From Mesorhizobium sp. M1E.F.Ca.ET.045.02.1.1 (lineage in GTDB: Bacteria > Pseudomonadota > Alphaproteobacteria > Rhizobiales > Rhizobiaceae): a stretch of 64,000 nucleotides of DNA. The stretch lies in contig NZ_CP034447.1 of the NCBI RefSeq assembly GCF_003952485.1, positions 1,302,001 to 1,366,000 on the forward strand, read 5' to 3'. Below are positions 22,050-59,596 of the stretch, in pieces. The number at the start of each line of letters is the position of its first letter. Position 1 is the first letter of the stretch. The notes under the pieces were generated by a model that worked only from the letters and a program-made list of their open reading frames with translations, was not told the DNA's origin and made no database searches. The translations under genes were made by a program, and so were the position numbers.

Positions 22050-22084
22050 ATATATCAAATCCAGGACTGTTCGGGAGGACGGCC

Positions 22085-23071: not shown

Positions 23072-23138
23072 CTTCGCGCGGGCTTTTCTGCGACCATACT
23101 GGCCGAATTTGCATGCCATTCGCGACGTTGCCCGGTTG

Positions 23139-24164: not shown

Positions 24165-24221
24165 GCGGCTGCTATGATTTTCGGTGATCAAGAAAGGTAC
24201 TGTCGCGCCGCGTTCCTTCAC

Positions 24222-24377
24222 ACCCCCCTCTGTCCTGCCGGACATCTCCCCCGCAAGGGGGGAGATTGGCAGCTTCGTCGGCGACGCTCTTCCTCCAACG
24301 TAGGAGATTGACGAAAGCGGCAGTGACGTCCGATCTCCCCCCTTGCGGGGGAGATGTCCGGTAGGACAGAGGGGGTA
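24222..24377. repeat. Large inverted repeat, two-unit palindromic element (copy D)
   Basis: The arm at 24222-24266 and the arm at 24333-24377 are reverse complements over 45 nt with a single mismatch. Each arm also contains its own hairpin around CTCCCCCGCAAGGGGGGAG. The spacer is 66 nt. Just outside, TACTGTCGCGCC (24199) and TACTGTCCCGCC (24376) form an imperfect direct repeat. It fills most of the 301-nt gap between two convergent genes and probably ends transcription from both sides. Confidence 0.85.
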
Positions 24378-24465
24378 CTGTCCCGCCAGCGTTTCGGATT
24401 TTCTGCACAGCGCTCTGAAGTCACCGCAATGACGGGCGTTTCCGCTAATCGCCAAGCATGCGGAA

Positions 24466-25446: not shown

Positions 25447-25451
25447 GCTAC

Positions 25452-25886: not shown

Positions 25887-26173
25887 CACGCGCCCGGGTC
25901 GGCGAGGATGCCTTCCGCCACCAGTTCGGCGGCGAGCGCCGCCATGTCCTCGTCGAGCGTCGCCTTGTCGATCTCGAATTCGTCCGACAAGAGGTCGACG
26001 ATCTGATCGAGGTTGCGGGCGCCGTCGACCTTGTCGAGGAAGGCCTCGGTCGTGCCGTTGCAGGTGTAGAGCTGGCCGCTGCGCGCCAGAAGCACGACGG
26101 CGCCGTCGCCGACATGCTGCACGGAGGCGTCCTCCGCCATCCGCAGAACTGTTTCAGAGGCGATTTCAATCAT
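25886..26173 (-). CDS. PqqD-like peptide-binding protein (locus 1)
   Basis: A 95-residue PqqD/RRE-fold protein. The family pattern shows as VLLARSGQLYTCNGTTEAFLDKVDGARNLDQIVDLLSDEF, with two central strands followed by helices and an acidic C-terminal helix (DEDMAALAAELVAEGIL). Such domains bind leader peptides and present them to processing enzymes. It is the first gene of a three-gene operon with overlapping or near-contiguous reading frames. A gggag ribosome-binding site precedes the ATG. No leader-type peptide was found in the 400 nt upstream on this strand. Confidence 0.78.
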   Translation of the reverse strand: MIEIASETVLRMAEDASVQHVGDGAVVLLARSGQLYTCNGTTEAFLDKVDGARNLDQIVDLLSDEFEIDKATLDEDMAALAAELVAEGILADPGA

Positions 26174-26309
26174 GCGCCCGCTCCCTTTTGCCCCGAGAGC
26201 AATTAGCGCGGCACCGTGGCGCTGTCCATTGCCTGATGTCAGGCCCGGTGTTGCCTTCTTGCCCCAAGGTAAGCTAGAAACCGCCCGGGGTTTTCGGGGA
26301 GTGAACAGT

Positions 26310-26426
26310 ATGCGTTACAATTGGGATCGGGCTCCGACGGCTTTCGAGCGCCATCGGAAAGCGTTGGCGGCCGCTATTTTGATCGCCGGCGGCGTGGGGC
26401 TGATGCTCGCGACACTGCCGCTGTAA
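26310..26426 (+). CDS. Possible 38-residue single-pass membrane peptide
   Basis: A short frame encoding a basic N-terminus (RYNWDRAPTAFERHRK) and one hydrophobic helix (ALAAAILIAGGVGLMLATLPL). A ggggag site lies about 9 nt before ATG 26310. It occupies part of the 411-nt gap between the PqqD-like gene and prpE. No homologue is recognised; it is reported because start signals and topology look real. It has no lasso-core features. Confidence 0.4.
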   Translation: MRYNWDRAPTAFERHRKALAAAILIAGGVGLMLATLPL

Positions 26427-26584
26427 GCCGACTTCAAGTCGGGACGCCGGAACGGCGCTCAACCGGAAGCGCCGTCCGCAGAAATTTGCCGGCGACAATC
26501 GACGAAAATGCAAGAAGACATGGCCGGCAAAAGCCGATTAGGCTATTGCCAGACGACGCAATGTTTCCTGGGGAGGAAAAGTCG

Positions 26585-31944: not shown

Positions 31945-32877
31945 GTGAATACCAAGCGCCTGGACCTCAATCTGTTGGTTACCCTGGAGACGCTGCTGGT
32001 CGAGCGGAACGTCACGAAGGCGGCTGCCCGACTGCACCTGAGCCAACCCGCGGTAAGCGCCCAGCTGAACCGTCTCAGGCGCGAGTTCGATGACCCGCTG
32101 CTAATTCCTGCCCAGCGAGGTATGACGCCGACGGTCAAAGCAATGGAGTTGCTCGATCCGTTGCGCCAAGCCCTTGATCAAGTTCGCGCCACGGTCGCTT
32201 CGCATAGGAACTTCGATCCGGCGAAGGCCAACCTGACCTTCGCAATCGCTTGCACGGACTATCTACAAGCGGCCGTGGTCAAGCCGCTCGTTGTGGAACT
32301 CAGGACGCGAGCGCCCGGTGTTCGCGTCGCGATCCGCAATCTGGACGTGGCGCAGTTGGAAGCGCAGATGGCGCGCGGCGACGTGGATTTGGCGCTCATG
32401 ACGCCGCAGGCGGCCTCGCCAAGTCTTCGCACTCGCCATCTGTTCGATGAGCGCTATGTGCTCATCGGCCGCCGGAAGCATCCATGGCTGCGGGACGGAA
32501 TCACGGTCGCTGAATTTGCTGAGCTAGAGCAAGTGATCGTATCTTTGGACGGAGGCAGCTTCGTGACGCCGTTGGACAGCGCTTTGGCTGCTCTCGGACA
32601 CAAGCGCAACGTGGTGCTCTCTGCGGCTTCGTTCCTGTTTGTCCCCGAGATCGTGTCTCACTCGGACTTCGTGGCGCTGGTCCCGGAACGGCTGGTCCGC
32701 AACTCGGCGGACCAGCTTGAAGTGATGGACTGTCCACTCCCCGTTGAAGGCTTTGCTGTGGGAATGGTTTGGCATGAGCGCAATCACGGACACAGCGGCC
32801 AACGCTGGATCCGTGAAGCTGTTGTCTCACTTGTCGCGCGTCAATCCTCGCCCCAGGCGCGCGATAGTCACGACTAG
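31945..32877 (+). CDS. LysR-family transcriptional regulator
   Basis: A 310-residue regulator. The winged helix is NLLVTLETLLVERNVTKAAARLHLSQPAVSAQLNRLRREFDDPLL (residues about 8-53), resembling the NodD-like subgroup. The effector domain follows from about residue 90. Start is GTG at 31945. The 152-nt divergent gap to the NmrA gene contains TATA-ttggaaat-TATA near 31904-31919, a possible operator. Its stop overlaps the exoP stop tail to tail by 4 nt. Most likely it controls the divergent NmrA-like gene; no sign it regulates exo genes. Confidence 0.88.
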   Translation: MNTKRLDLNLLVTLETLLVERNVTKAAARLHLSQPAVSAQLNRLRREFDDPLLIPAQRGMTPTVKAMELLDPLRQALDQVRATVASHRNFDPAKANLTFAIACTDYLQAAVVKPLVVELRTRAPGVRVAIRNLDVAQLEAQMARGDVDLALMTPQAASPSLRTRHLFDERYVLIGRRKHPWLRDGITVAEFAELEQVIVSLDGGSFVTPLDSALAALGHKRNVVLSAASFLFVPEIVSHSDFVALVPERLVRNSADQLEVMDCPLPVEGFAVGMVWHERNHGHSGQRWIREAVVSLVARQSSPQARDSHD

Positions 32878-35258
32878 GCGGCCTGCTTGGCGCGCGCGTC
32901 CGACTTCTCCAGGTAATAACTCGAATAGCGGTCGAAGAACCTTTCAGAGCCGCCGAGCGAGCCGTATTTCGCCAGCTTCTTCAGCTCGACCTTGTTGAGC
33001 ACCGCGCCGACGATCTTGTCGGCGATATAGGGCTCCTGCTCCAGCATCGAGCGCACCATGGCGCGTGGCGTGCGGCCCCATTCGGTGACGAGCACGAAAC
33101 CGTCGACCAGCGGCGCGAAGGCCTTGGCGTCGACCACGGGCCCGAGCGGCGGCAGGTCGACGATGACGTATTCGAAGGTCTCCCTGGCGTTCTCGATGAA
33201 GCGGCGCATGCCGGCCGAGCCCAGAAGCTCGCTGGTGTGCGAAAACTGGCCGCGCAGCACGGCGGGGATGATCGCCAGCTTGGTCTGGCGGTCGACCTTG
33301 CCGACCGACTGCCAGGTCTGCCCGTTGACCACCGCCTCCATCAGCCCGTGCTCGGCTTCCATGCCAAGGCTGCGGCTGAGGCCGGGATTGCGCAGGTCTC
33401 CATCGATCAGCAATGTCCTGGCGCCGTTGGCGGCGAGCAGTCCGGCAAGGTTTGCCGCAACCGTCGACTTGCCTTCGCCGGGCAGGACCGAGACAACGCC
33501 GATCACGCGGCTGCCCTTGTCTTCCATCACCACATCGAAGGCGATCTTGGCGTTGCGAAGCGTCTCGGCAAACATCGAGGCCGGCGCATCGAGACTCACC
33601 CGCATGCGCGCCCGTTTCTCGGCGGCGGACAGGCTGGTGACCTTGCCGTCGGTGGGCAGGTCGTCCGGTTTCGACTCCTTGGCCTTGCCGCCGCCGATCG
33701 TCGGCAGGTAGCCGAGGAACTTCAGGCCGACGCGGTCGCGAATGTCCTCGCCGGTGCGGAAGAAGCGCTCGTTGAATTCATTGAGGCCGCCGAAGCCGGC
33801 GCCGAGCATGAGGCCAAGCACCAATGACAGCGCCAGCACCCTGATGGTGCGCGGGCTCGACGCGGCAAGCGGCATGTTCGCGTCCGAGATGATGCGCACC
33901 TTGCCGACCGGGAAGGACTGCTGCTGCGAGGCTTCCTGATAACGGCCGAGGAAGGTCTGGTAGAGCGTGGAGAGCGCCTGCGCCTGCTGGTCGAGCTCCC
34001 TCAGCCTCACCTGCGATTCGTTGTCGGCCGAGCTCTGGCCGGCAGCGGTCGTGATCTTTTGCCTGAGCTCGGCCTCGCGCGCCTGCGCCACCTGAAAGTC
34101 GTTGCGATAGCTTTCGGTGATCTGCTTCAACTGCCCGAAGATCTGCGCCGACACATCGGCCTTTTCCTTGGTGAGCGCCACCGCCTGGGGGTGGTCCTTG
34201 CCGAAATTCGCCTCGACATCCTGCAGCCGCTTGGAGACGGCGAGATAACGGGTCTTGAGTCCGATGATGACCGAGCTGCTCGGCTGATCGGATGCGATCG
34301 CCGAATCGTTGAAGGCATTCTCGGAGCCGCTGTCGACGATCGCCTTGTACTGCTGGTAGCGGGCGCTGGCGCGCGCGGTATCGGCCTGCGCGATGATGAG
34401 CTGGGCGTTGAGATCGGAAAGCTGCTTGCCGCTGATCAACTGGCCGTCGCTGTTTGCGGACAGACCGTGCTCGGCCCTGAATCTCTCGACCTCCATGGCG
34501 GCCTGCTGCGAGCTTTGACGAAGCTCGGTCAGCCTGCCCTGCAGCCAGACAGCCGCGCGCTCGGTGGCGTCGAAGCTGGCATTGAGCTGATCGGCGAGAT
34601 AGGCCTCGGCATAGGCCTTGGTGATGGCCGTCGCGAGGGCCGGATCCGTCGACTGATAGCCCAAGGTGATGACGTTGCTGCGGCCGACGCGATCCGCCAT
34701 CAAGTCGGTCTGCAGCTTGAGAACCGCATAGTCGTGACGGGCGGCGGTAATCATCGCCTGGCGCGTCGCGGCGTCGACATTCTGGATCCCGGGGATGTCA
34801 TCCGTGCTCGAGCCGCCGCGAAAATAGGAAACCACGCCGCGCAGGAAACCGATGCCCTTGGCAAGGGCCGATTGCGGCGGATACATGAACTCGTCGTTCT
34901 GGTCGAGCTTCAGCTTGTCGACGACCACCGACGCCAGCCGCGCCGAGTTGAGAATTTCTATCTGGCTGAGGATGGTCGCGTCCGTCTGCTGCGTGGCGTT
35001 GGCCGCCGAAATGTCGTCCACGACCTTGTTCAGGCCCTCGTCGATCAGCACGCTCGAGACGGACGTGAATTGCTTGGGCGTGGTCTGCAGGTAGATGACG
35101 CCCAGGAACAGGCCGATGATGGCGCAGACCGCCACCACCTTGGCCTGCCGGGCCGCCATGCCAAGCAGACGCTCGACGTCGATGAAGTCTTCACCCTTTT
35201 CCGCTTCGGCGTTGGGCAATGGCATCCTCTTGTCGAGAGGAAAGTTGGCATAATTCAT
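32874..35258 (-). CDS. exoP: Exopolysaccharide chain-length regulator / BY-kinase ExoP
   Basis: A 794-residue Wzc-type protein of the inner membrane. A Wzz domain starts near residue 25, with the first membrane helix at about 38-57 and the second at about 480-500. Between them is a long periplasmic coiled coil. The cytoplasmic bacterial tyrosine kinase has Walker A VLPGEGKST, Walker A' LLIDGDLRNPG and Walker B VIVDLPPLGP. A C-terminal tyrosine cluster (KYGSLGGSERFFDRYSSYYLEK split over about residues 765-786) is the autophosphorylation site. It sets chain length with ExoF and ExoQ. It heads the minus-strand half of the exo cluster, as in S. meliloti. Confidence 0.93.
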   Translation of the reverse strand: MNYANFPLDKRMPLPNAEAEKGEDFIDVERLLGMAARQAKVVAVCAIIGLFLGVIYLQTTPKQFTSVSSVLIDEGLNKVVDDISAANATQQTDATILSQIEILNSARLASVVVDKLKLDQNDEFMYPPQSALAKGIGFLRGVVSYFRGGSSTDDIPGIQNVDAATRQAMITAARHDYAVLKLQTDLMADRVGRSNVITLGYQSTDPALATAITKAYAEAYLADQLNASFDATERAAVWLQGRLTELRQSSQQAAMEVERFRAEHGLSANSDGQLISGKQLSDLNAQLIIAQADTARASARYQQYKAIVDSGSENAFNDSAIASDQPSSSVIIGLKTRYLAVSKRLQDVEANFGKDHPQAVALTKEKADVSAQIFGQLKQITESYRNDFQVAQAREAELRQKITTAAGQSSADNESQVRLRELDQQAQALSTLYQTFLGRYQEASQQQSFPVGKVRIISDANMPLAASSPRTIRVLALSLVLGLMLGAGFGGLNEFNERFFRTGEDIRDRVGLKFLGYLPTIGGGKAKESKPDDLPTDGKVTSLSAAEKRARMRVSLDAPASMFAETLRNAKIAFDVVMEDKGSRVIGVVSVLPGEGKSTVAANLAGLLAANGARTLLIDGDLRNPGLSRSLGMEAEHGLMEAVVNGQTWQSVGKVDRQTKLAIIPAVLRGQFSHTSELLGSAGMRRFIENARETFEYVIVDLPPLGPVVDAKAFAPLVDGFVLVTEWGRTPRAMVRSMLEQEPYIADKIVGAVLNKVELKKLAKYGSLGGSERFFDRYSSYYLEKSDARAKQAA

Positions 35259-47949: not shown

Positions 47950-48837
47950 CTAGTTGCTGTTAGTTATGGTGCAAGCCAGCGATTCCGGGAATTGGCATGG
48001 CTGGCCCAAAGCGGTGAAGGCGACGCGCTTGACCTGCATGGTCACCTTGCGGCCGGGATCGGCGAAGGCGCCCATCCAGTTGGTCAGCTTGTCGCTGCCC
48101 CACAGGCTGAAGAAGATCTTCTGCGGATTGGTCGGCAATTCGTCCGGATTGGTCACCTCGTTGACCAGCTTGCCGTTGACATACCAGCGCAGCCGGTCCT
48201 TCTCCCAGACGAAACCATAATCATTGAAGCCCTTGTCGGCGCCGCCTTCGACATCGACGAGCTTGCCGTTCTTCGGCTTGCCCTGGATGTAGCTGTTGAC
48301 CTGGACCTTCGACGGATCCTTGGTCAGAACCTCGAAGTCGATCTCGTCCCAGGGCTTTTTGTCCTGCGGCCCGATATAGGTGAAGAACGCGGCGTTGAGG
48401 CCGGATCCGGTGTCCGTCTTCATGCGCGCCTCATAGACGCCGTAGCCATAGCGCTGCTTGGTCTGCAGCTCGGCGCAGGCGAACTCGCGATCCTTGAGCT
48501 TGCGTTTTTCGAAGCCGAGCGAAAGCACGCCGTCGGAAAGCCGGACCAGATCCTTCGACCAGATGCAGTTCTGGTGATTGCCGTTGCTCCAGCCGTCGGA
48601 GACGTACCAGCGCGAACGGTCGAAATTCGAGAAATTGTCGACGAAGGACGGCGCGCTTTGCATGTCCTGCGCATGCGCATCCTCGGCATGCGCCGAATGC
48701 GGGACCGCCAAAACGGCTGCTGTAACTGCGAGCAGCGCGCTTGCGAGGCTTGGCCAAAAGCTACGCGGCCCATTCGGGTGCGCGCGCGACATGCCGCAAG
48801 CCGCCGCGGTCGTGGTGTTGTTGGGATCTGCGTTCAT
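47950..48837 (-). CDS. exoK: Secreted endo-beta-glycanase ExoK (GH16)
   Basis: A 295-residue glycoside hydrolase family 16 enzyme. ATG 48837 gives a long N-terminus with a signal hydrophobic core at about residues 30-50 and likely cleavage after SAHA. The active-site motif is WDEIDFEVL with nucleophile Glu165, Asp167 and acid/base Glu169. RYGYGVYEARMKTDTGSGLNAAFFTYIG is the typical upstream strand. S. meliloti ExoK trims succinoglycan outside the cell. It is positioned between the ugd and exoU genes, consistent with the exo cluster. Confidence 0.92.
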   Translation of the reverse strand: MNADPNNTTTAAACGMSRAHPNGPRSFWPSLASALLAVTAAVLAVPHSAHAEDAHAQDMQSAPSFVDNFSNFDRSRWYVSDGWSNGNHQNCIWSKDLVRLSDGVLSLGFEKRKLKDREFACAELQTKQRYGYGVYEARMKTDTGSGLNAAFFTYIGPQDKKPWDEIDFEVLTKDPSKVQVNSYIQGKPKNGKLVDVEGGADKGFNDYGFVWEKDRLRWYVNGKLVNEVTNPDELPTNPQKIFFSLWGSDKLTNWMGAFADPGRKVTMQVKRVAFTALGQPCQFPESLACTITNSN

Positions 48838-48971
48838 AACAAACTCACCTTGTGTTGTCCGCCCCAACCCAAAGTCATTCCTGGCCCGCCTCAGGCGAGC
48901 CGCTTCTGATCCTTTGCCCTTTGAACTCCTCTGTTGTCTGGTACCGACGACGCGTGCGTTGACGTGCCTTT

Positions 48972-49489: not shown

Positions 49490-50506
49490 TCACTCTTCCG
49501 CAGCACTTGTCGCAGCCATCAGGAAGCGCATCGCAGGCACTTGCTGCTTTGCAGCAATGCCGGTGCGGCGGAACAGCGCGTCCAGCTTGTCGGCGGCCAC
49601 GCCGCGAACGATCGGGATCAGATTGGACTGGCTGGCGAGGGCATAGGCGGCGGCCGACGCCAGGCCGCGCTCCGCCTTCACATCGAGGAAATTGCGCAGC
49701 CGGTATTTGTCGCGCACATGGCGTTCGTGGCGCCGCAGCGCGGCCTTCGAGCCTTCCGGCAGGTTGCCCAGCGCCAGCAGCGCCAGGTCGGCGTCGGCAA
49801 GGCGCTTCAGATCCTGCGTCCTATGGCGGCCGCTCAGCGAATCGGCGCGCACGATTGCGCCGTAGCCGCAGGACTTGATGATTTTGAAACGCGCTCCGCA
49901 GGCGACCGCGCGCGCATAGAGCTCGTAATCCTCGCCGAGCCGCAGGTTTTCGTCATAGCTCAGCCCGTGGCGCTCAAGGAATGCCCGGCTGATCACAGGC
50001 TTGAGGAAGCCCAGTTCGCCGCGCAGGACGCGGCGGCGAGAGATGTTGCCTTCGATGAAACCCTCGAAATCGAGGAATTGCGGCTCGGGCGCGAAGGACG
50101 GAGCCGCGACCTTGGTAAGGTCGCTCGCCGCATCGTCCCTGATCAGCATGATGTTGTCGGCGGCGAAATCCCAGTCGGCGCTGGCGAACAGCCGGCGGAA
50201 GCGGCCCTCGAGGAAGAAATCGTCAGCGTCGAGGATACTGAGGAAAGGCGAAACGGAGGCCTTGATCGCGGCGTTGCGGGCGAAGGACGGACCTCGGTTG
50301 ACGTCGAGACGCATCACCGAAAGCCTGCCACGGCCGTCGTCGGCGGCGCGCGCCACATGCTGCGTATCGTCGGTGGAGGCGTCGTCGACCACGACGACTT
50401 CCGCCACCTCCGCCTCGCGCAAAGCCGAGGCGATGGCGACGGGAATGGTCCGCGCCGCATTGCGGGCGGCGATTATGACGCAGACCCTTGGGGTCGTCAC
50501 GGGCAT
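49490..50506 (-). CDS. exoU: Glycosyltransferase ExoU-like (GT2)
   Basis: A 338-residue GT2 enzyme. N-terminus VCVIIAARNAARTIPVAIASAL, VVVVDDASTDDTQHVARAADDG, DVNRGPSFARNAAI, LDADDFF and a central EGNISRRRVLRGELGFLKPVISRAFLERHGL closely match remembered S. meliloti ExoU, as does IKSCGYGAIVRADSLSGRHRT. ExoU adds the sixth sugar of the succinoglycan repeat unit. In S. meliloti exoU is adjacent to exoX; here a nucleotidyltransferase and the lasso cluster lie between them. Confidence 0.9.
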   Translation of the reverse strand: MPVTTPRVCVIIAARNAARTIPVAIASALREAEVAEVVVVDDASTDDTQHVARAADDGRGRLSVMRLDVNRGPSFARNAAIKASVSPFLSILDADDFFLEGRFRRLFASADWDFAADNIMLIRDDAASDLTKVAAPSFAPEPQFLDFEGFIEGNISRRRVLRGELGFLKPVISRAFLERHGLSYDENLRLGEDYELYARAVACGARFKIIKSCGYGAIVRADSLSGRHRTQDLKRLADADLALLALGNLPEGSKAALRRHERHVRDKYRLRNFLDVKAERGLASAAAYALASQSNLIPIVRGVAADKLDALFRRTGIAAKQQVPAMRFLMAATSAAEE

Positions 50507-50574: not shown

Positions 50575-51732
50575 TCATCCGTTGCCCCGCACCGGCGTGA
50601 CGGCGTCCGGCCGCTCGAAGATGCGCCGGCTGAGATCGGCGGAGGCCGCCCATCCGGCCTCGGTCAGATAGCGCACCGGCTCGCGGCCGCAGAGCTCCCA
50701 CAGCACCGTCCGCCGCTGCGGCCAGCGCAGCGACGACAGCCAGGGCGCGATCACCATGTGGAAGAGGTCGGCATTGGCGATGCGCGCCAGGATCCGGGTG
50801 GCGCGGTCCGAGAGCAGTGTGACAGTGCCGCCAAGCAGAACATCGGCCGCGCGCAGGCCAAGCAGCAGCGTATCGGCCAGACCCTGCCCGGCGGCGTGGT
50901 CAAGCACATTCTGCTGTTCGGTTTCGCTCAGCCGGCTGGCCGCGGCTCTGACGTCGCAGACATAGCCGGCGCAAGGCTCGCGGTTGAAGAAGGCCTTGGC
51001 CACGCTGATGCAGGACAAGAGCAACATGTCGGACGCCGAAATCAAAGGCATACCGGTTCCGGCAATCTCGACCTGACGCTTGCGGCGCAGGAAGCCGTCG
51101 ATATCGCGCGGGCTCGGCGAGCCCGGCTGCTGCAGCCGGTAGTGGAGGTCGACCGTGGCAACCCGCACGCCGTCGTCGCGGACCATATGCTGCTCGCCGA
51201 GGAAGCGCACCCACCAGACCGAGCGCGACTTGCCGGCGACCTCGTAGCCGACCGAGCGCAAGGCCTCGCGGGCGGCGGTGAAACCGGACGGCGAAACCAG
51301 GATGTCGACGTCGCCGGACGGCTTCATGAAATGATCGCCATAGAGCAATTGCTGCTGGAGCGGCCCTTTCAGGAAGACGAAATCGATCTGCCTGCCCCGC
51401 AGCACCTGATGGATGGCGATCGAATCGCCGATGCAGGCGGCGTTCATCGACATGGTGCGCCGGCGATAGCCGTCGAGCCATGCCAGCAACTCTGGAGGCG
51501 TGGCGCCAGCCGCCCCGCGTGAGAGAGCCTTGAGCAAAAAGACCGCGACCTTGTTCAGCCTCGCAATGTCGGCGACGTTGGATGCCGAGATTGCCGGAGC
51601 CGGCATGTCGCCATGACCGGCGGCACTCGCAGCCGGATTGAAGAACAGCCGCAGACAGGCCTGCATATAGGCGACTTCGTCGGCGCAGCCGGCCGCACGC
51701 AGCCTGTCGTAAGAAGCATCCTGCACGGCCAT
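50575..51732 (-). CDS. Nucleotidyltransferase divergent from the lasso operon
   Basis: A 385-residue protein of the NTP_transf_5-like family. The core is FLKGPLQQQLLYGDHFMKPSGDVDILVSPSGF with the DVD metal pair, followed by VATVDLHYRL, the third acidic position. It is a paralogue of the gene at 23139. ATG 51732 is preceded by ggag; longer starts are possible. It lies upstream of exoU on the minus strand and diverges from the precursor gene across a 502-nt gap. In some Bacillus/Paenibacillus lasso clusters a nucleotidyltransferase acts after the kinase, adding a sugar to the phosphate; that function is proposed here by analogy. Confidence 0.78.
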   Translation of the reverse strand: MAVQDASYDRLRAAGCADEVAYMQACLRLFFNPAASAAGHGDMPAPAISASNVADIARLNKVAVFLLKALSRGAAGATPPELLAWLDGYRRRTMSMNAACIGDSIAIHQVLRGRQIDFVFLKGPLQQQLLYGDHFMKPSGDVDILVSPSGFTAAREALRSVGYEVAGKSRSVWWVRFLGEQHMVRDDGVRVATVDLHYRLQQPGSPSPRDIDGFLRRKRQVEIAGTGMPLISASDMLLLSCISVAKAFFNREPCAGYVCDVRAAASRLSETEQQNVLDHAAGQGLADTLLLGLRAADVLLGGTVTLLSDRATRILARIANADLFHMVIAPWLSSLRWPQRRTVLWELCGREPVRYLTEAGWAASADLSRRIFERPDAVTPVRGNG

Positions 51733-52234: not shown

Positions 52235-52387
52235 ATGGAACAGAATGTTGAGAAGCAGGAGTACGAGGCCCCCAGCCTGACGGTTCACGGCTCGATCGAA
52301 ACGATCACGCAGGGCGGCGCTGGTACGACGGCGCTGGACGCAGCATTTCCCGCACACACGCCTTTCGACCAGCTTACCTTCTCTTGA
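52235..52387 (+). CDS. Lasso peptide precursor (A)
   Basis: A 50-residue peptide with ggagag 5 nt before ATG 52235. The leader (1-26) has the RRE-recognition pattern YxxPxLxxxGxxxxxT: Tyr10, Pro13, Leu15, Gly19 and Thr25, the last at position -2 from the core, required in known lasso leaders. The core (27-50) begins GGAGTTALD, so Gly27 can form an isopeptide bond with Asp35 (core position 9). This gives a nine-residue ring with 15 residues left for loop and tail. It ends in QLTFS. There is no cysteine, so class II. The tail has His, Phe and Gln residues that could act as steric plugs. It is followed by B1, B2, C, K and D genes. Final Ser50 is the likely phosphorylation site. Confidence 0.9.
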   Translation: MEQNVEKQEYEAPSLTVHGSIETITQGGAGTTALDAAFPAHTPFDQLTFS

Positions 52388-52393
52388 GGCTGA

Positions 52394-52470
52394 GGGCGTC
52401 CGGGCATGTCGGAGTTGGGACTCCGGGCGCCCCTTTGAACAGATGGGCCGGGGGACCCTGTTCCCCCGGC
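52394..52470 (+). other. Two hairpins between precursor and B1 genes
   Basis: Hairpin 1 pairs GGGCGTCCGG (52394-52403) with CCGGGCGCCC (52423-52432), with one G-T pair. Hairpin 2 pairs GCCGGGGGA (52447-52455) with TCCCCCGGC (52462-52470) around a 6-nt loop. Neither is followed by a proper T run. Strong hairpins after a precursor gene commonly stabilise its mRNA or partly end transcription, giving more precursor than enzyme. Confidence 0.7.
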
Positions 52471-52545
52471 TTCCTGTCCGGCGATCGCAGGCAACCGATC
52501 CGGTCAGGCTTGAAGACGCGTGGCGTTCAACAATGAGGTTTTAGG

Positions 52546-52845
52546 ATGCACTGGAACCCATCTGACCACGACCGCGTGGTCGCGACCAGCGATGCGGTGG
52601 CCTGCGAATTCGGCAACGGACTGGCGCTGCTCCATCTCAAGTCCAACATCTACTACAGCCTGAACGGCGTCGGCGCCTATATCTGGGAACTTATCCAGGA
52701 GCCGCGGTCGATCCTCGACATAAAGAACGCCATGCTTGCGCGCTACGATGTCGATGCCGGGCGCTGCAAGGCCGATGCCGAGGGCCTGCTCAAGGGGCTG
52801 ATCGAAGCTGGGCTTGCGAGGCTCCACCATGAGGAACTGGTCTAG
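52546..52845 (+). CDS. Lasso peptide leader-binding protein B1 (PqqD-like RRE)
   Basis: A 99-residue RRE-domain protein. The fold pattern reads VVATSDAVACEFGNGLALLHLKSNIYYSLNGVGAYIWELI, the typical B1 pattern of three strands, Y-x-LN-x-x-G and helix, then a helical tail. It binds the leader of the precursor and delivers it to B2. The stop overlaps the B2 start by 17 nt, so they are translated together. ATG 52546 follows a gaggttttagg site. It is a paralogue in function of the PqqD-like gene at 25886. Confidence 0.88.
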   Translation: MHWNPSDHDRVVATSDAVACEFGNGLALLHLKSNIYYSLNGVGAYIWELIQEPRSILDIKNAMLARYDVDAGRCKADAEGLLKGLIEAGLARLHHEELV

Positions 52846-53245
52846 GGTCCTCTCACTGAGCGGCGCGGAAATGCTGTTCTTGATGCGCTGCCTGGCGGTG
52901 ATCGGCGCCGTGCGGCTAGGACTGGCCGTTTTCTCCTACAACCATGTGCGTGGCCTGGTGACGCGGCTTGATGCCAAAGGCGCGGCGAGCACGGGCGAAC
53001 TCAGGCGCATCGCCTGGGGCGTCGCCGCTGCCGCACGGTTTGTGCCTGGCGCCAGCTGCCTCACCCAGGCTCTCGCCGGACACTATCTGCTTGCCCGCAA
53101 GGGCAATGCCTCCAAGATCCGCATCGGCATCGAGCGCGACACCGGAGCCGAGCTCAAGGCACATGCCTGGCTGGTCAGCGGCAACCACATCGTGCTCGGC
53201 GGCTCGATCAGCGGGTTCAACCATCTTGTCGATCACGGACCGTAG
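52829..53245 (+). CDS. Lasso peptide leader protease B2 (transglutaminase fold)
   Basis: A 138-residue B2 protease starting at MRNWSRVLSL (ATG 52829); an upstream start adds five residues. The catalytic cysteine is Cys77 in VPGASCLTQALAGHYLLARKG and the histidine is His112 in ELKAHAWLVSGNHI, the standard B2 motifs. A C-terminal Asp (Asp135) or the segment's Asn completes the triad. It cuts between Gln26 and Gly27 of the precursor, freeing the amino group for cyclisation. It ends 3 nt before the cyclase gene. Confidence 0.9.
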   Translation: MRNWSRVLSLSGAEMLFLMRCLAVIGAVRLGLAVFSYNHVRGLVTRLDAKGAASTGELRRIAWGVAAAARFVPGASCLTQALAGHYLLARKGNASKIRIGIERDTGAELKAHAWLVSGNHIVLGGSISGFNHLVDHGP

Positions 53246-53248
53246 ACG

Positions 53249-55171
53249 ATGAGCGGCGTCGCCGGAATTCTGTCGAGGGAGGACGGCAGGCCTGCCGCAG
53301 CCGCCGACATCCAACAGATGCTCGCGCGCATGCGCCACCGGGCGCGCGACGGCAGCTCGTGGTGGGCGGATGGAAGCGCGGCGCTCGGCCATGCCTGGCT
53401 CGACACGACGGGCGAAGACGGCCCCGGCCCGCTGACGATGGCCAACGGCAAGCTCGCCATCACGGCGGATTGCCGGCTGGACAATCGGGAGGAGCTTTTG
53501 GCGCGTCTCGGCATACGTGACCACGCGGCGGCCGACGCGATGCTTCTTGTGCGCGCTTACCTGAAATGGGGCGATGCCTGTCCGACCTATCTGCAAGGCG
53601 ATTTCGCCTTCGCGATCTGGGATGCCGAGCGCCGAGCGCTGTTTTGCGCCCGCGACCATTTCGGCATCAAACCATTCTATTATCACGCGAGCGCCAGGCG
53701 CTTCGCGTTCGCCTCGGAGATCGGCCCTCTGCTGGCTCTGGACGGTGTCGGCACGCGCATCAGCGAGCATCAGATTTCCGGCTTCCTTGCCGGACTGCCC
53801 GACGATCCGCAGTCGACCCACTATGCCGAAATCTTCCGCCTGCCGGCCCGCCACATCCTGACGGTGACGGACAGCCGGGTGACGCTTCGCCGCTACTGGC
53901 AGATCGAGCCTTCGCCAAGGCCGCTTCGCTCGGATGCGGCTGAGGAATTCAGGCATCTCTTCTCACAGTCGGTGCGAAACCGGATGCGCGGCACCACTGC
54001 CATCGGCGCGATGCTGAGCGGCGGCCTCGATTCGTCTTCGATCGCCGGCGTCGCCGGCCTGCGGGCGGCTGCGGAGCGCAGACCGAGACTCAAGACCTTC
54101 TCGCTGGTCTTCGAGAAGGGCTCGCCGATGGATGAGAAGCCATTCATCGACGCGGTGCTCGACCGGCACCGGCTCGACGGCACGATGATTTCCGTCGGCA
54201 ACTACGCGCCTTTCGCCGAGTTCGAGCGCATCCTGGAGGAACAGGAAGGGACGTTCCTGGCGCCTGGCCTGTCGTTGACCCGCAGCATCTACCGGACAGC
54301 GGGCGCCAAGGGGGTGAAGGTGCTGCTCGACGGCCATGGCGGCGACGAGGTCGTTTCGCATGGGTATGGACTGCTGCATGAGCTCGCCAACGCGGGCCGA
54401 TGGCTGGCACTGTGGCGCGAGCTTCACGGCGGCTCCGGCATCTACGGCGAAGGCATGCTCGCCATGTATTTCAGATTCCTGACCATCTACGGGCCGGCAT
54501 GGCGGATCGCCAGGTGGAGAAGCCGGATGAACCGGCTTCTGTCCAGGCTGCGGCCGGGGCCCGCCGCGCAGGCACGCGTCCCCGCCTGGGGCGGCCTGGT
54601 CAACGCCGAGCTCGCCCGGCGCACCGACCTCGTCGAGCGCTTCCACCGTTCCGGCTACATGCCGTCGAGCGTCAGCGCCAGCGAGGCGCTCACCCATCGC
54701 TGGGTGCTCTCGACCGGTCTGGTGCCGCACGCTTTCGAGGTGCTGGACAAGGCGGCAGCCAATTTCGGCGTCGAACCGCGCTATCCGTTCTGGGACAAGC
54801 CGCTGGTCGAATTCTGCCTGGCGCTGCCCGGCGCGGAAAAGCTGCATAACGGCTTCGGCCGCTACGTGCTGCGCCGGGCGATGGAGGGCGTGCTGCCGCC
54901 GGCGGTGCAGTGGCGGCGGGACAAGATCGATTTCACCGCCAACCTGGTCAAGGGCATGCTTGGCCACCATCGCGACCTGATGGACGCGATGCTGGTGTCG
55001 GATGGCGATCGCATCGCGCCCTACGTCAACCTGGGCGAGGTCAACGCCGCCTATGCGCGGCTGCTCGATAAGCCGGACGAGGCCGCGCCGCTCGATGTGC
55101 AATATGTCTGGCGCTCGATCTCGCTGTCGCTCTGGCTGCGGCAGATCCAGCCGGCGAGGAACCCGGCATGA
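53249..55171 (+). CDS. Lasso cyclase C (asparagine synthetase-like)
   Basis: A 640-residue ATP-dependent macrolactam synthetase. The N-terminus MSGVAGIL is glutaminase-like but has Ser2 instead of the catalytic Cys, as expected for lasso cyclases that do not need glutamine. The AMP-forming PP-loop is AMLSGGLDSSSIAG (SGGLDSSS at 257-264), and the second active-site segment is LLDGHGGDEVVSHGYG. It would adenylate Asp9 of the core and close the ring with Gly1 while the tail is threaded. The last 4 nt overlap the kinase start. Confidence 0.92.
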   Translation: MSGVAGILSREDGRPAAAADIQQMLARMRHRARDGSSWWADGSAALGHAWLDTTGEDGPGPLTMANGKLAITADCRLDNREELLARLGIRDHAAADAMLLVRAYLKWGDACPTYLQGDFAFAIWDAERRALFCARDHFGIKPFYYHASARRFAFASEIGPLLALDGVGTRISEHQISGFLAGLPDDPQSTHYAEIFRLPARHILTVTDSRVTLRRYWQIEPSPRPLRSDAAEEFRHLFSQSVRNRMRGTTAIGAMLSGGLDSSSIAGVAGLRAAAERRPRLKTFSLVFEKGSPMDEKPFIDAVLDRHRLDGTMISVGNYAPFAEFERILEEQEGTFLAPGLSLTRSIYRTAGAKGVKVLLDGHGGDEVVSHGYGLLHELANAGRWLALWRELHGGSGIYGEGMLAMYFRFLTIYGPAWRIARWRSRMNRLLSRLRPGPAAQARVPAWGGLVNAELARRTDLVERFHRSGYMPSSVSASEALTHRWVLSTGLVPHAFEVLDKAAANFGVEPRYPFWDKPLVEFCLALPGAEKLHNGFGRYVLRRAMEGVLPPAVQWRRDKIDFTANLVKGMLGHHRDLMDAMLVSDGDRIAPYVNLGEVNAAYARLLDKPDEAAPLDVQYVWRSISLSLWLRQIQPARNPA

Positions 55172-56157
55172 ATGTTTCAGCCGCCGCGCCGGCCACCGGG
55201 CCAGAAACCGATGCTGGACCCGAAGCCCGGCGCGGGCGCATCCGCCGATTCTACAAGGCCTATGGCCTGACGATCGGCTCGGATGTGGCGTTGCCGGAAC
55301 TGCAGCCAGCCGCGCCCACGGCACCCGATATCGTGATCGCCGTCGGGCCGGTCGACTTTGCCAGGCCCGCCACGGAAGGCGGAACCGCCTTCCGCTTCGA
55401 GCCGACGCGCCAATATCTGTCCTGGCAAGCCGTCGGCACCTTCCTGATCAGCGATGCTTCCAGGATCGATGTCGATCCGGCGCCGGGCGTCGACGATCCG
55501 CTGCTGGCCTTCCCGCTCCTGGGTCCGGTGCTGGCGCTCGCCCTACATCAGCGCGGCTTGCTGGTCCTGCATGCCAGCGCGATCGCCGTGGGTTGCCAAA
55601 GCGTGATCTTCATGGGCGACAAGGGCGCCGGCAAGTCGACCACGGCGGGCGCGATGATCCGCGCCGGTCACCTTCTGCTTACCGACGATGTCGTGGCGCT
55701 TGACCTGTCCGATCCAAGCCAACCGATGATCCTGCCCGGTTTCCCGCAGCTCAAGCTTGCAACGGATGCCGCCGACGCCATCAGGATCGGACAAGCGGAG
55801 GTGCGGCCGCAGGTGCATCCGCAGATCGACAAGGCGCAGCATCGTTTGCATGACGGATTTGCCCGCGAAGCCGTGCCGGCGGCCCGGATCTATGTGCTGG
55901 AGCGCGGCGAGCGGGCGGCGATCACTCCGCTGCCGGGCGCCGGCGCCCTGCCGGCGATCATCAAGTTCTCCTACGTCACCCGGTTCGGCCGGCAGGCGCT
56001 GGTTGCCGATTTCGCATCCATGCATCTCAGCCAATGCGCGCAGCTTGCCGCCAAAACAGGCGTCCGCCGGCTCGATGTGCCGGCAGGCCTGGAACGGATC
56101 GGCGAGGCTGTCGCCTTGATCGAGAACGACGTGACGGCCGACACGCAGGCAAGGTGA
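55168..56157 (+). CDS. HPr-kinase-like lasso peptide kinase (K)
   Basis: A 329-residue kinase. After a divergent N-terminal half, the HprK-like core has His135 in LLVLHASAIAV, the P-loop FMGDKGAGKSTTAGAM (150-158) and the acidic LLTDDVVALDL (Asp173/174). Translation is coupled to the cyclase by ATGA. In the paeninodin system and related clusters such kinases phosphorylate the C-terminal serine of the precursor. The precursor here ends in Ser. The protein is thus predicted to add phosphate to Ser50 before or after cyclisation. It differs from the kinase at 24466 in the N-terminal half. Confidence 0.85.
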   Translation: MNVSAAAPATGPETDAGPEARRGRIRRFYKAYGLTIGSDVALPELQPAAPTAPDIVIAVGPVDFARPATEGGTAFRFEPTRQYLSWQAVGTFLISDASRIDVDPAPGVDDPLLAFPLLGPVLALALHQRGLLVLHASAIAVGCQSVIFMGDKGAGKSTTAGAMIRAGHLLLTDDVVALDLSDPSQPMILPGFPQLKLATDAADAIRIGQAEVRPQVHPQIDKAQHRLHDGFAREAVPAARIYVLERGERAAITPLPGAGALPAIIKFSYVTRFGRQALVADFASMHLSQCAQLAAKTGVRRLDVPAGLERIGEAVALIENDVTADTQAR

Positions 56158-56165
56158 GCAGAGGC

Positions 56166-58076
56166 ATGGCCTGGTCCTCGAAATGTCGCCTCTCCGTTTT
56201 CCGGGACGTCGCCGGCTTCGGCGCCGTGATGGCGCATCTCGGCGGCCGACGCACGCTGACGGCACTGGCCTTCCTCATCCTGGGAAGCCTGACCGAGGGC
56301 CTTTCGATCCTGCTGCTCATCCCGCTCCTGCATCTGATCGGCAATGCCGACGAGGATTTCGCCGTGCGGGTGCCGGGCGCCCTGCAATGGCTTGTGCCCG
56401 CCGGAGCGCTGTCGCTGGCGACGGTGCTCTGCCTGCTCGTCGGACTGGTGGCGCTGCAGGCGATGTTCACCCGCTTCAAGTCGCTCTATATGGCGCGGCT
56501 GCTCTACGACTTCGTCAACCGCGTGCGCATGAACCTGTTCGAGAGCATCGGCAAGGCGCGCTGGGGGGTCTTCACCCGCATGCGCGGCTCCGATCTCGAC
56601 CACGCGCTGACCGGCGACATCGACAGGGTGCAGGCGGCCGCCTTCTCGCTGCTGATGCTTGCCCAGACGACGCTGCTGCTCGCGGGCTATCTCGTGGTGT
56701 CGCTGTTCATCTCGCCGGTGATGACGTCCTTCGCCATCCTCGTCGGCGTGCTGTTGTTCGTTGCCCTGCAGCCCTTCCGTGCCCGCGCCACCGCATACGG
56801 CCGCGTGCTGACCGGCAGCCGCCAGGATCAGTACCGCACGGTCTCGGAGTTCCTTGGCGGCATCAAGGTGGCCAAGAGCCTGAACGTCGAGGCCAGCTAT
56901 TTCGCGCAGCTCCGCGCGACGCTGGAGAAGATGAAGGCGGACAACATCGCCTATGTCCGCAACAGCACCATCGGCACCGCGCTGTTCCAGGTTGCGAGCG
57001 TGATCGGCCTCAGCCTGTTCATCTACATCGCGCTGGTGCGCTTCCACCTGTCGCTTGCCGAAATCGTCGTGCTGCTCTTGGTCTTCATGCGGGTCGCGCC
57101 GCGCTTCATGGATATGCAGACGCAGGCGCAGCAGGTGCTGATCAATCTGCCGGCATACACCGCCATGCAGGCCCTGCAGGCGCGCTTCGATGCGGAGCGC
57201 GAGACGGAGCCGGGCGATACCGCACAGGGCGCCAGGCTTTCGCTCGATACCGGCCTCGACATTCGCGACGTCTCGTTCGTTTATGGCGACCGCGATGGAG
57301 GGGGCGACGGAAGGCCGGTGGTGAGCGGTATCACCTTCGGCCTTCCCGCCGGCAAGGTGACGGCCCTGATCGGGCCGTCCGGCTCGGGCAAAAGCACGAT
57401 CGCCGACATGCTGCTTGGGCTGCTCGAGCCGACCTCCGGCATGATCCTGGCGGACGGCGTCGAGATCACCGCCAAGAACCGACGGACCTGGCGCGATCAG
57501 GTGGCCTACGTGCCGCAGGACGTGTTCCTGCTGCACGGCACGATCGCCGCCAATTTGCGCCTTGCGGCGCCGCGGGCCGGCGAAGCGGAGCTTTGGGCGG
57601 CGCTGCGCAAGGCGCATGCGGCCGACTTCGTCGAGCGGCTCGACCTGCGGCTTGAAACCGTGGTGGGCGACCGCGGCGTCCGGCTCTCGGGCGGGGAACG
57701 CCAGCGCATCGCGCTGGCGCGGGCGCTGCTGCGCAGGCCTTCGCTGCTCATCCTCGACGAGGCGACGAGCGCGCTGGACTGGCAGAACCAATCGCTGATC
57801 GCCCAATCCATCGACGGGTTGCGCGGCCAGATGACGATCCTCACCATCGCGCACCGACCGTCGATGATCGCCTTCGCCGACTGGGTCGTGGCCATCGAGA
57901 ACGGGCATATCGTCGAAGTCGGGCAATATCAGCGGCTGAAAGCAAAGTCCGGCAGCCGGCTGGCCAGAATGCTCTCCGGCGAGCGAGCCGAGCCGGAAAC
58001 CGCAACACCGGCGGACGATGCGCCGGTCCCGGCGCAGGCCGAAAGATCAGCGGAGGCTGCCGCGCCTGGCGGTTAG
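56166..58076 (+). CDS. Lasso peptide ABC exporter (D)
   Basis: A 636-residue half-transporter with an N-terminal six-helix membrane domain (about residues 30-320) and C-terminal ATPase: Walker A GPSGSGKST, Q-loop VPQDVFLLHGT, signature LSGGERQRIALARAL, Walker B LLILDEATSALD, switch His in TIAHRPS. It lacks a C39 peptidase domain, as expected when B2 cuts the leader. It forms a homodimer that exports the mature peptide and likely gives self-immunity. ATG 56166 is 8 nt after the kinase. Its end overlaps exoX tail to tail by 30 nt. Confidence 0.9.
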   Translation: MAWSSKCRLSVFRDVAGFGAVMAHLGGRRTLTALAFLILGSLTEGLSILLLIPLLHLIGNADEDFAVRVPGALQWLVPAGALSLATVLCLLVGLVALQAMFTRFKSLYMARLLYDFVNRVRMNLFESIGKARWGVFTRMRGSDLDHALTGDIDRVQAAAFSLLMLAQTTLLLAGYLVVSLFISPVMTSFAILVGVLLFVALQPFRARATAYGRVLTGSRQDQYRTVSEFLGGIKVAKSLNVEASYFAQLRATLEKMKADNIAYVRNSTIGTALFQVASVIGLSLFIYIALVRFHLSLAEIVVLLLVFMRVAPRFMDMQTQAQQVLINLPAYTAMQALQARFDAERETEPGDTAQGARLSLDTGLDIRDVSFVYGDRDGGGDGRPVVSGITFGLPAGKVTALIGPSGSGKSTIADMLLGLLEPTSGMILADGVEITAKNRRTWRDQVAYVPQDVFLLHGTIAANLRLAAPRAGEAELWAALRKAHAADFVERLDLRLETVVGDRGVRLSGGERQRIALARALLRRPSLLILDEATSALDWQNQSLIAQSIDGLRGQMTILTIAHRPSMIAFADWVVAIENGHIVEVGQYQRLKAKSGSRLARMLSGERAEPETATPADDAPVPAQAERSAEAAAPGG

Positions 58077-58313
58077 ATTTTCGCCCTCGGCCACCTTGAC
58101 GCCCCGCTCGGCTTCACGCGGCTTGTCAGCGGTCGTCGGGGTGCTTCTGACGATCATGGCATAGACCAGAAGGAAATAGCCCGCCTGAATGATCACCGCG
58201 CATATGACGGCACGCATGATGATGGTGCCGAGCGAGGCTCCATCGAAATAGGACCAGCCGATCACGATCGCGAGTGCGAACATCATGCCGACGATGAATT
58301 TTGGCAAAGACAT
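58047..58313 (-). CDS. exoX: Exopolysaccharide production repressor ExoX
   Basis: An 88-residue inner-membrane protein with two hydrophobic helices: PKFIVGMMFALAIVIGWSYF and the highly characteristic TIIMRAVICAVIIQAGYFLLVYAMIV. The C-terminal tail is charged. The family (ExoX/Psi) lowers exopolysaccharide synthesis post-translationally, probably by acting on ExoY. In S. meliloti exoX is divergent from exoY, as here. Start ATG 58313 (MSLPKFIVG). Its 3' end overlaps the lasso exporter gene by 30 nt on the opposite strand. Confidence 0.85.
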   Translation of the reverse strand: MSLPKFIVGMMFALAIVIGWSYFDGASLGTIIMRAVICAVIIQAGYFLLVYAMIVRSTPTTADKPREAERGVKVAEGENLTARRGSLR

Positions 58314-58918
58314 GATCGTCGGCCTCAACCGATACGAGCATGCAAAAGCTGCGACTTACCCACCCGCGTAACTCCCCGTTCCGCCAAAAAGCTATTTCTG
58401 GCTGCCCAATTCGACCGGTTGCTTCCGGCCTTCCTAACCCGCGTAGACTATGACAGAAACAATTTGCGACTCTATTAAGGCGGGGGTCCCGCGACAAGGC
58501 CAACCACAAATAATATCCAATGATTTCGCAGGATCGACTCTGCCATGCTGCGACGCACACGGCTGCGCCGACACCTACGCAAATGACCGAATCGGGCGCC
58601 AGTAGAACCTAAAATATTAATTAGTATTTAATGCGAATAACTTACCTGAGCGAGTGATTCTCGCGTCATGCAACCACCGCTCTCCTGCAGCAAAGAACGC
58701 GCTGTCCAAAAATGGCCTAAAAACGGCACTACATTTCCTGAAATTTCTCTGATCTTGTCATAAACACGCCACAAAGGCGAAAATTTGGGCATGGTACGTT
58801 TATTATTTAGTCAATTCATGACGCGAACATTTCACGCAGATGAGAAATTGTGTGTTGCGCTGCAGCATTTTTTTGATATCGTGCCATAAACCATTCGTTC
58901 AACGTATGGAGCTTTTGC
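58314..58918. promoter_or_regulatory. AT-rich regulatory region between exoX and exoY
   Basis: A 605-nt divergent gap with no supported gene. It is much more AT-rich than the surroundings, especially 58605-58650 (aaaatattaattagtattt) and 58790-58830 (tacgtttattatttagtcaattc). Long AT-rich regions before exoY are typical targets of MucR/Ros zinc-finger regulators in rhizobia. Individual binding sites cannot be fixed by eye. Confidence 0.65.
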
Positions 58919-59596
58919 ATGAGGGACGTCGCCAAGTCGGCCAATGCGGGTTTTGCGCAGGCTGGCATTGATTTTCCACCCCCCATCGGCGGTCTGCTCA
59001 AACGCAGTTTCGATATCGTCGGTTCCCTGGCCGGTCTGGTTCTGCTCAGCCCGCTCTTCCTGATGGTCGCGCTGCTGGTCAAGCTTTCCGACCGCGGCCC
59101 GATCTTCTATGGCCACAAGCGAATCGGTCGCGGCGGCAGGATCTTCGCCTGTCTCAAGTTCCGCACCATGGTCCAGGACGGCGAGCGGGTGCTCGCCGCG
59201 CATCTGGCCGCCAATCCGGACGCCAATGCCGAATGGCTCGCGACGCGCAAGCTGAAGAACGATCCGCGCGTGACGCGAGTCGGCCAGGTGCTGAGGAAGC
59301 TCAGCCTCGACGAGCTGCCGCAGATCATCAATATCCTGCAGGGCGATATGAGCCTCGTCGGCCCGCGCCCTGTGGTTCGTGACGAGCTCGAGATCTATGG
59401 CAGCGCAGCCGTCTACTATCTGAAGTCGCGCCCCGGTCTCACCGGGCTGTGGCAGGTCAGCGGACGCAACGATGTGTCCTACGACACGCGCGTCGCCTTC
59501 GACCGCCACTATGTCGAGAACTGGTCGATGGTCGAGGACATTCGCATCATCGTCAAGACCGTGCCTGCCGTGTGGATGTCGCGCGGCAGCTATTGA
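58919..59596 (+). CDS. exoY: Undecaprenyl-phosphate galactosephosphotransferase ExoY
   Basis: A 225-residue polyprenyl-phosphate hexose-1-phosphate transferase that starts the repeat unit by moving galactose-1-phosphate onto undecaprenyl phosphate. Family motifs: KRSFDIVGSLAGLVLLSPLFL (membrane helix), FYGHKRIGRGGRIFACLKFRTM, DPRVTRVGQVLRKLSLDELPQI, NILQGDMSLVGPRPVVRDE and KSRPGLTGLWQVSGRN. It is short, lacking the extra N-terminal helices of WcaJ. ATG 58919 fits ExoY length. It is followed by exoF with a 59-nt gap, as in S. meliloti. Confidence 0.95.
   Translation: MRDVAKSANAGFAQAGIDFPPPIGGLLKRSFDIVGSLAGLVLLSPLFLMVALLVKLSDRGPIFYGHKRIGRGGRIFACLKFRTMVQDGERVLAAHLAANPDANAEWLATRKLKNDPRVTRVGQVLRKLSLDELPQIINILQGDMSLVGPRPVVRDELEIYGSAAVYYLKSRPGLTGLWQVSGRNDVSYDTRVAFDRHYVENWSMVEDIRIIVKTVPAVWMSRGSY

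Follow-up and report, generated by a model that had tools for sequence, protein, structure and literature searches.

Kinase-type lasso peptide clusters of the gene order A B1 B2 C K D have been described from proteobacteria (PMC5067487, PMC8498205). A locus of this kind was analysed in a 64,000-nucleotide stretch of the genome of Mesorhizobium sp. M1E.F.Ca.ET.045.02.1.1 (contig NZ_CP034447.1, positions 1,302,001–1,366,000 of the forward strand), referred to here as the window. Seven genes form one cassette in the order NTP_transf_5–A–B1–B2–C–K–D, between a GT2 (exoU-like) gene and an exoX-like gene of a chromosomal exopolysaccharide (EPS; exo) locus. The cassette probably directs the synthesis of a class II lasso peptide with a modified C-terminal serine (probability of about 0.82, a figure that covers the tailored lasso peptide only and leaves any link to EPS aside).

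The SyanA/SyanK cluster of Sphingobium yanoikuyae has the same gene order, split B protein, HprK-like kinase and C-terminal Ser (PMC5067487, PMC8498205). The likeness is one of published description; the Mesorhizobium cassette includes a divergent NTP_transf_5 gene as well and sits in an exo locus. Such kinases, proteobacterial ones included, are reported to phosphorylate the C-terminal Ser (PMC9266682, PMC8498205), and a His-Lys-Asp-Asp (HKDD) motif is described as catalytic in lasso kinases acting on the C-terminal Ser of the precursor (PMC9266682). Pseudomycoidin of Bacillus pseudomycoides likewise combines a kinase (PsmK) with a nucleotidyltransferase gene (PsmN) for the terminal Ser, and PsmN, a nucleotidyltransferase-family protein, is reported to add hexoses to the phosphate (PMC9266682); that system belongs to another phylum, and hexose transfer by the Mesorhizobium protein would be an analogy only. 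In Bacilli, paeninodin-like lasso clusters and cyclase-less linear phosphopeptide (LPP) clusters lie in capsular polysaccharide loci, and the 2026 account gives their roles as unknown and suggests biofilm (PMC13381572). They share with the present cassette an HprK-like kinase, an NTP-transferase gene, an exporter and the embedding in a polysaccharide locus. The Bacillota paeninodin-like leaders are described as WxxP, with the W nearly invariant (PMC13381572), whereas YxxP was found in 102 of 102 Mesorhizobium precursors. The cassette also differs from the Bacilli clusters in having no SipW-like peptidase among its seven genes and in its long-kept place at one locus in one genus.

Precursor and predicted ring

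The precursor gene (52235–52387, plus strand) encodes 50 residues, a 26-residue leader followed by the 24-residue core GGAGTTALDAAFPAHTPFDQLTFS, which has Asp at position 9 and ends in Ser24. The protein passed the lasso leader model NF033521 (24.5 bits, cut-off 19) and fell narrowly under the cut-off of NF033528 (32.8 bits against 33). A precursor with the same marks lies upstream of B1 in each of the 103 cyclase-bearing genomes of the genus, window included (51 distinct sequences), and it is therefore not a product of chance. Residue conservation was counted on 102 precursors, one row containing N being left out. The leader residues Tyr10, Pro13, Leu15, Gly19 and Thr25 (at −2) were invariant throughout, as were Gly1, Asp9, Phe12, Pro13, Thr16, Pro17, Thr22, Phe23 and Ser24 of the core, and none of the 102 contains Cys. 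The Thr at −2 with a YxxP..L leader is the pattern of class II lasso clusters, and so is a core with Gly1, an Asp or Glu at positions 7–9 and no Cys. Since Gly1, Asp9 and Ser24 are invariant, a nine-residue ring and the terminal Ser are supported as the parts that matter. Asp residues at core positions 5, 19 or 20 vary among the relatives and were ruled out as ring partners.

The preliminary description of this DNA had listed the same five leader marks and proposed a class II cluster with a nine-residue ring; both stand. Its remark that the precursor lies below gene-calling size does not hold generally, as NCBI names several close relatives of the same 50-residue length, labelled 'lasso peptide' or 'lasso RiPP family leader peptide-containing protein'. 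It had also likened the GGAG start of the core to microcin J25. That peptide shares the GGAG start and ring closure at Gly1, has a ring of eight closed through Glu8 and a fused B protein, and is not known to come with a kinase or an NTP gene. In the present locus the ring residue is Asp9 with no Glu at position 8, and B1 and B2 are separate. The shared start appears incidental, since related cores begin GGGG, GGSG, GASG or GTGG, and kinship with microcin J25 was ruled out because GGAG is unkept among the relatives and the ring, B protein and tailoring differ.

The ratio of nonsynonymous to synonymous polymorphism (pN/pS; 96 unique sequences) was 0.039 for the leader, 0.27 for the core and 0.52 for ring positions 2–8. 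The cores thus vary within the ring and keep a constant TFS end; 31 distinct cores were counted, and the exact core of the window occurs in seven of 102. A hairpin in the gap between the precursor and B1 (52442–52474, plus strand) was recovered by RNAalifold from 27 relatives. Eleven of the 15 pairs of the consensus structure fall within this hairpin; five of the eleven show changes on both sides in some sequences, and the innermost pair is broken or gapped in nine. Rfam gave no match in the window at gathering scores. The hairpin may perhaps set the ratio of precursor to enzymes.

Lasso machinery

Observations on gene content, motifs and conservation were made directly on the sequences. B1 (52546–52845, plus strand) is a PqqD-like leader-binding (RRE) protein that scored 64 bits with PF05402 (PqqD) and below the cut-offs of the lasso-specific PqqD models; its relatives in the PDB by sequence are TbiB1 (5v1u) and a lasso PqqD chaperone (9x90). 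B2 (52829–53245, plus strand), which starts within the 3' end of B1, is a transglutaminase-like leader peptidase (NF033537, 63.6 bits, cut-off 33) with Cys77 and His112 invariant in 14 aligned sequences; the triad assignment covers these two residues. C (53249–55171, plus strand) is an asparagine-synthetase-like lasso macrolactam synthetase (NF033535, 755.8 bits, cut-off 525) with the motif SGGLDSS. An RRE protein B1, a B2 with its Cys and His and a cyclase C are together the class II set of enzymes. D (56166–58076, plus strand; alternative GTG start at 56154) is an ABC exporter (PF00005, PF00664).

In 101 of 103 genomes a single open frame matches at least 85% of the length of the cyclase. 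Disruption of the cyclase next to a precursor that is still intact, which had been named beforehand as a finding that would speak against a working cluster, does occur, but in only two of the 103 (genomes G051, with two frames, and G077, with rearranged pieces; genomes and loci of our samples carry G and L numbers). Model scans identified none of the seven cassette genes as an isopeptidase or a separate immunity gene.

Kinase and expected product

K (55168–56157, plus strand), the start of which lies within the 3' end of C, is an HprK-like kinase predicted to act on the C-terminal Ser of the precursor. Its matches to HprK models are weak (28.1 bits with Hpr_kinase_C, cut-off 33.3), and His135, Lys156, Asp173 and Asp174 do not vary across an alignment of six homologues that are 40–51% identical. 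The two hallmarks of kinase-tailored lasso peptides, the HKDD residues and a C-terminal Ser (102 of 102), were both found, and a phosphorylated product is expected because the kinase keeps the former and the core ends in the latter.

Recalculation agreed with the masses given earlier for the bare core (linear 2392.13 Da; cyclised 2374.123 Da, previously quoted as 2374.12 Da; [M+H]+ 2375.130). The unmodified ion at m/z 2375.13, put forward as the product to seek, was not supported: the HKDD residues and the invariant Ser predict that each phosphate will add 79.97, and from the co-inherited NTP_transf_5 gene one more group is to be expected. The mass to look for is thus corrected from the bare cyclised core to the phosphorylated form, and the main product should probably weigh 2454.09 Da (one phosphate), 2534.06 Da (two) or more. 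The calculated [M+H]+ values for one, two and three phosphates are 2455.10, 2535.06 and 2615.03, and a core bearing phosphate and one hexose would have a neutral mass of 2616.14 Da.

The seventh gene

The six plus-strand genes from the precursor to D, which the preliminary description had presented as a complete cluster, were all confirmed in position; its completeness was not, since a divergent NTP_transf_5 gene (50575–51732, minus strand) belongs to it too. This gene matched (E ≤ 1e-60) in 104 of the 146 genomes of the genus sample, namely the 103 with a cyclase and G122, a fragmentary assembly in which the contig ends beside it; in G081 it lies on another contig. An exoY-like gene of the same region matched in 140 of 146 genomes (E 1e-60), so that the NTP_transf_5 gene follows the cyclase and not the locus. 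A six-gene cluster was accordingly ruled out, because the seventh gene comes and goes with the cassette.

The protein, a nucleotidyltransferase-superfamily protein of 385 residues, scored 120 bits with PF14907 (cut-off 31.2) when scanned as a longer 426-residue frame. Its start was set at Met 51732 because 19 relatives carry in-frame stops within residues 27–41 of that frame, several of them directly preceding this Met. Two PF14907 genes of the source genome exceed the cut-off, the seventh cassette gene and one in a second module treated below. An AlphaFold model built from seven sequences had a mean pLDDT of 79.9 and a pTM of 0.84. In Foldseek its best match was MenAT1 (E 1.8e-4), with LnuA, ANT(2'') and FKRP weaker (E 0.004 to 0.02), and on this model the protein is placed in the nucleotidyltransferase superfamily; a sequence search for a solved relative gave none that was credible (best E 0.53). 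As in pseudomycoidin-type clusters, a nucleotidyltransferase-family gene is present and, judged by co-inheritance, belongs to the set. By analogy, the protein may add a sugar to the phosphate.

Characterised relatives suggest the order of the enzymatic steps, the phosphorylation and the sugar. B1 would bind the leader and K would phosphorylate core Ser24 on the linear precursor. B2 would then cleave after Gln26, and C would close the ring from Gly1 to the side chain of Asp9 around the tail. The phosphate would receive another substituent, most likely a sugar, from the NTP_transf_5 enzyme, and export of the product would fall to D.

Distribution and inheritance in the genus

Co-inheritance, position and scars of loss were likewise read directly from the genomes. 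The cyclase (E ≤ 1e-100) was found in 103 of 146 genomes, giving 103 loci, the window and 102 fetched ones. All 103 contain B1, B2, C, K, D and exoX. The NTP_transf_5, GT2, exoY-like and exoF-like genes were each found in 102; the gaps (in G078 and G081) fall at contig ends. The layout GT2, NTP_transf_5, B1, B2, C, K, D, exoX, exoY, exoF is identical in 101 of 103 loci, and the other two are cut by contig ends. M. loti CJ3sym also carries the cassette (L201).

Cassette-free sites were inspected in 34 of the 37 genomes with an exoY-like match and without a cyclase. The GT2 gene was present in 34 of 34, adjoining the exoX/exoY-like genes each time, and the exoX-like gene in 32 of 34, the two matches being 90–711 bp apart. 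Sequence resembling the 3' end of D persists in 11 of the 32 spacers (at best, in G082, 75% over 88 residues; the lowest-scoring case, at E 0.005, is marginal), and the spacer of G054 holds two pieces resembling the NTP_transf_5 gene. A tree of the two proteins on either side (135 rows, of which 101 carry the cassette and 34 lack it; linked genes, moderate support) required five changes of presence, against a mean of 30.6 in shuffles. Because cassette-free genomes keep the neighbours close together and 12 of 32 retain remnants of cassette genes, the cassette was inherited and repeatedly lost. We conclude that it has long been present in the genus, with several losses and largely vertical descent. 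The ten outermost genomes (nine and G126) may never have had it. G136 (locus L072) is a lone cassette-bearing genome within a cassette-less clade of the flank tree; its cassette was either regained, or kept while its neighbours lost theirs.

These patterns bear on the reading that the product is an ordinary antimicrobial lasso peptide of the microcin J25 kind, placed in the exo locus by chance, with the modification a minor tuning or a means of self-protection. The lasso machinery with its exporter would suit such a peptide, the faster change within the ring (pN/pS 0.52) would fit an arms race and the repeated losses are also consistent with it. A layout kept in 101 of 103 loci and a tail that is in part invariant are not what sporadic, mobile warfare clusters show, though, and neither an isopeptidase nor a separate immunity gene was seen among the seven genes; the account of the related Bacilli peptides gives their roles as unknown (PMC13381572). 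We regard this explanation as doubtful.

The exopolysaccharide locus

The left border of the cassette is the GT2 glycosyltransferase gene (49490–50506, minus strand; PF00535), for which the name exoU comes from position only. It was ruled out as an eighth cassette gene, being kept in genomes without the cassette. At the right border, the exoX-like gene (58047–58328, minus strand) and D run tail to tail, their 3' ends overlapping by 30 bases; it scored 39 bits with the ExoX model NF052519 (cut-off 140) and 24.2 bits with PF11089 (cut-off 25). An exoY-like priming sugar transferase follows (58919–59596, plus strand; PF02397, 217 bits). The ExoK endo-glycanase (47950–48867, minus strand; NF052392, 432 bits, cut-off 350) and, at the far end of the exo locus, an ExoP-like exopolysaccharide transport protein (32874–35258, minus strand; TIGR01005, 568 bits, cut-off 411.7) were recognised over curated cut-offs; the exoX-, exoY-, exoF-, exoQ- and exoU-like names depend on weaker or more general matches and on gene order. 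The order in the window, Q F Y X (cassette) U K ... P, is that of M. loti, exoQFYXUKTLAMONP, which as set out in PMC8227245 names nothing between X and U.

The place that the cassette has in most Mesorhizobium species, within the locus for an EPS that serves in nodulation, hints at a role at the cell surface rather than at a stray antibiotic, and on grounds of position the product would most likely work alongside exopolysaccharide, on the cell surface or within the matrix. A functional link between the peptide and EPS, for which position is the argument, is held tentatively and short of even odds.

Relatives outside the genus

In the family sample, the cyclase (E ≤ 1e-90) was found in nine of 297 genomes, five of the genus of the window and, going by assigned genus codes, four of others. 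The latter four cyclases are 37–56% identical, and one of these records is Mesorhizobium microcysteis (L224). In all three of the four other-genus loci that are long enough for analysis (L176, L178, L179) the position of the NTP_transf_5 gene is unchanged and the cassette has EPS neighbours. These are exoX-, exoY- and exoF-like genes in L176 and L178, with a GT2 gene in L176 of these two, and an ExoK-like and a GT2 gene in L179, where no precursor fitted the search pattern. A class-wide cyclase search at E 1e-80 returned only the source genome among 385.

Named genomes, when scanned, yielded 79 loci, of which 35 are from Mesorhizobium and 44 from elsewhere. K was present in 42 of the 44 (own model), and an NTP_transf_5 match in 26, of which 22 were under 100 bits. 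Precursors of Sphingomonas, Pseudaestuariivita, Nostoc and metagenome-assembled genomes of Methylobacteriaceae and Pyrinomonadaceae have Asp9, TP at 16–17 and a TFS or TLS end. Those of other relatives, mostly cyanobacteria, do not end in Ser, and many loci in relatives held no precursor fitting the search pattern. Two or three different precursors per cluster were seen in L240, L243, L253 and L254; in the cyanobacterial multi-precursor clusters the cores are long and without a terminal Ser, yet L243 and L253 each have a kinase within that stretch. In Sphingomonas sp. Y57, a GH16 glycanase with RTX repeats directly follows the NTP_transf_5 gene (L234:15756–17858).

Pseudaestuariivita has the NTP_transf_5 gene and cassette, in the same cassette order, beside Wzy, GH16, GT2 and Wzz; in Caulobacter they lie beside ExoF-, ExoP- and ExoQ-like and GT2 genes in another gene order. 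At least one of six EPS families was found in 24 of 47 non-Mesorhizobium loci (the models having been built partly from these hits). Thirteen cyanobacterial loci had an ExoP-like match; these loci are mutually related and some of the matches are weak. ExoP-like genes number 1 to 11 per genome (20 genomes), so that by our own estimate chance proximity within about 20 kb would be of the order of one percent; exoY-like genes number 1 to 3 per matching Mesorhizobium genome.

The cassette could also be a passenger, carried where the exo locus moves between genera as a block and the lasso genes have no functional tie to EPS. This would account for the unchanged order of the cassette and several EPS neighbours in further genera of the family, for the rarity of the cyclase there and for the agreement of flank and cyclase distances (Spearman 0.85, 99 genomes, linked genes). 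It accounts less well for the recurrence of the association in Caulobacter and Pseudaestuariivita, with their different gene order and different EPS neighbours respectively, or for the association reported in Bacilli (PMC13381572), and we consider it rather unlikely.

Weight of the evidence

Several findings weigh against a tailored lasso peptide with a kept place and a part in EPS biology. The kinase scores under the Pfam and NCBIfam cut-offs. Kinases lie with precursors that do not end in Ser in L221, L227, L241 and L253, so the kinase and the terminal Ser are not strictly tied outside the Mesorhizobium cassette. The sugar step is uncertain because deletion of lppN is reported to have had no effect in a heterologous test (PMC13381572). 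The cassette is dispensable, as 43 of 146 genomes lack a cyclase match; in another two the cyclase is broken. None of the six EPS families was found in 23 of the 47 non-Mesorhizobium loci, several of these stretches being short, and EPS neighbours are weak in three of eight alphaproteobacterial relatives (L234, L249, L254). Closeness to EPS genes was judged on a rough base rate, which falls short of a formal test.

A linear phosphorylated, LPP-like peptide with a ring that is never closed is very improbable: LPP clusters are described as sharing K, RRE, NTP gene and MsbA-like exporter (PMC13381572) and in two genomes the precursor and kinase persist alongside a cyclase that is broken, but the cyclase is near full length in one open frame in the other 101 of 103, and Gly1 and Asp9 are invariant.

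A second, cyclase-less module

A second module lies at 22956–26173 of the window, some 6.7 kb outside the exo locus on its exoP side. It consists of an NTP_transf_5 gene (22956–24164, plus strand; PF14907, 90 bits), an HprK-like kinase (24466–25455, minus strand), a lasso-type B2 (25452–25889, minus strand; NF033537, 69.8 bits, cut-off 33) and a PqqD/B1-like protein (25886–26173, minus strand). Its kinase was found in 97 of the 146 genus genomes, 92 of which also have the lasso cyclase. None of the frames nearby was seen to encode a cyclase, an exporter or a credible precursor; a single leader-motif match within 21900–27200, in a frame that overlaps the second NTP gene, was disbelieved. The module recalls the LPP systems of Bacilli.

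Significance for rhizobial exopolysaccharide

The type of product is already known; its constant position within the exo locus of a genus of symbionts is the interesting part and seems unreported, a lasso cluster in a rhizobial exo locus not having been found among the listed titles and abstracts from the open full-text literature, which leaves most subscription papers outside the coverage. Mutants of exoU in M. loti R7A are reported to be blocked in infection-thread formation, and so are mutants of mlr5265 and mlr5266 of M. loti to be impaired, two genes that may or may not belong to the cassette and to which these texts assign no product (PMC8227245, PMC6144797). A kinase-type lasso peptide is kept in a legume-symbiont genus, adjoining an exoU-like gene of a kind needed in M. 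loti R7A for infection threads. The lasso peptide might be a working part of the rhizobial EPS system, with the NTP_transf_5 enzyme linking its phospho-Ser to a sugar or an EPS repeat unit, so that it would anchor in or decorate the matrix, or tune EPS synthesis or host recognition. We rate so specific a role as unlikely on present evidence; if true, it would explain the kept place of the cassette across the genus and its recurrence beside EPS genes in other orders.

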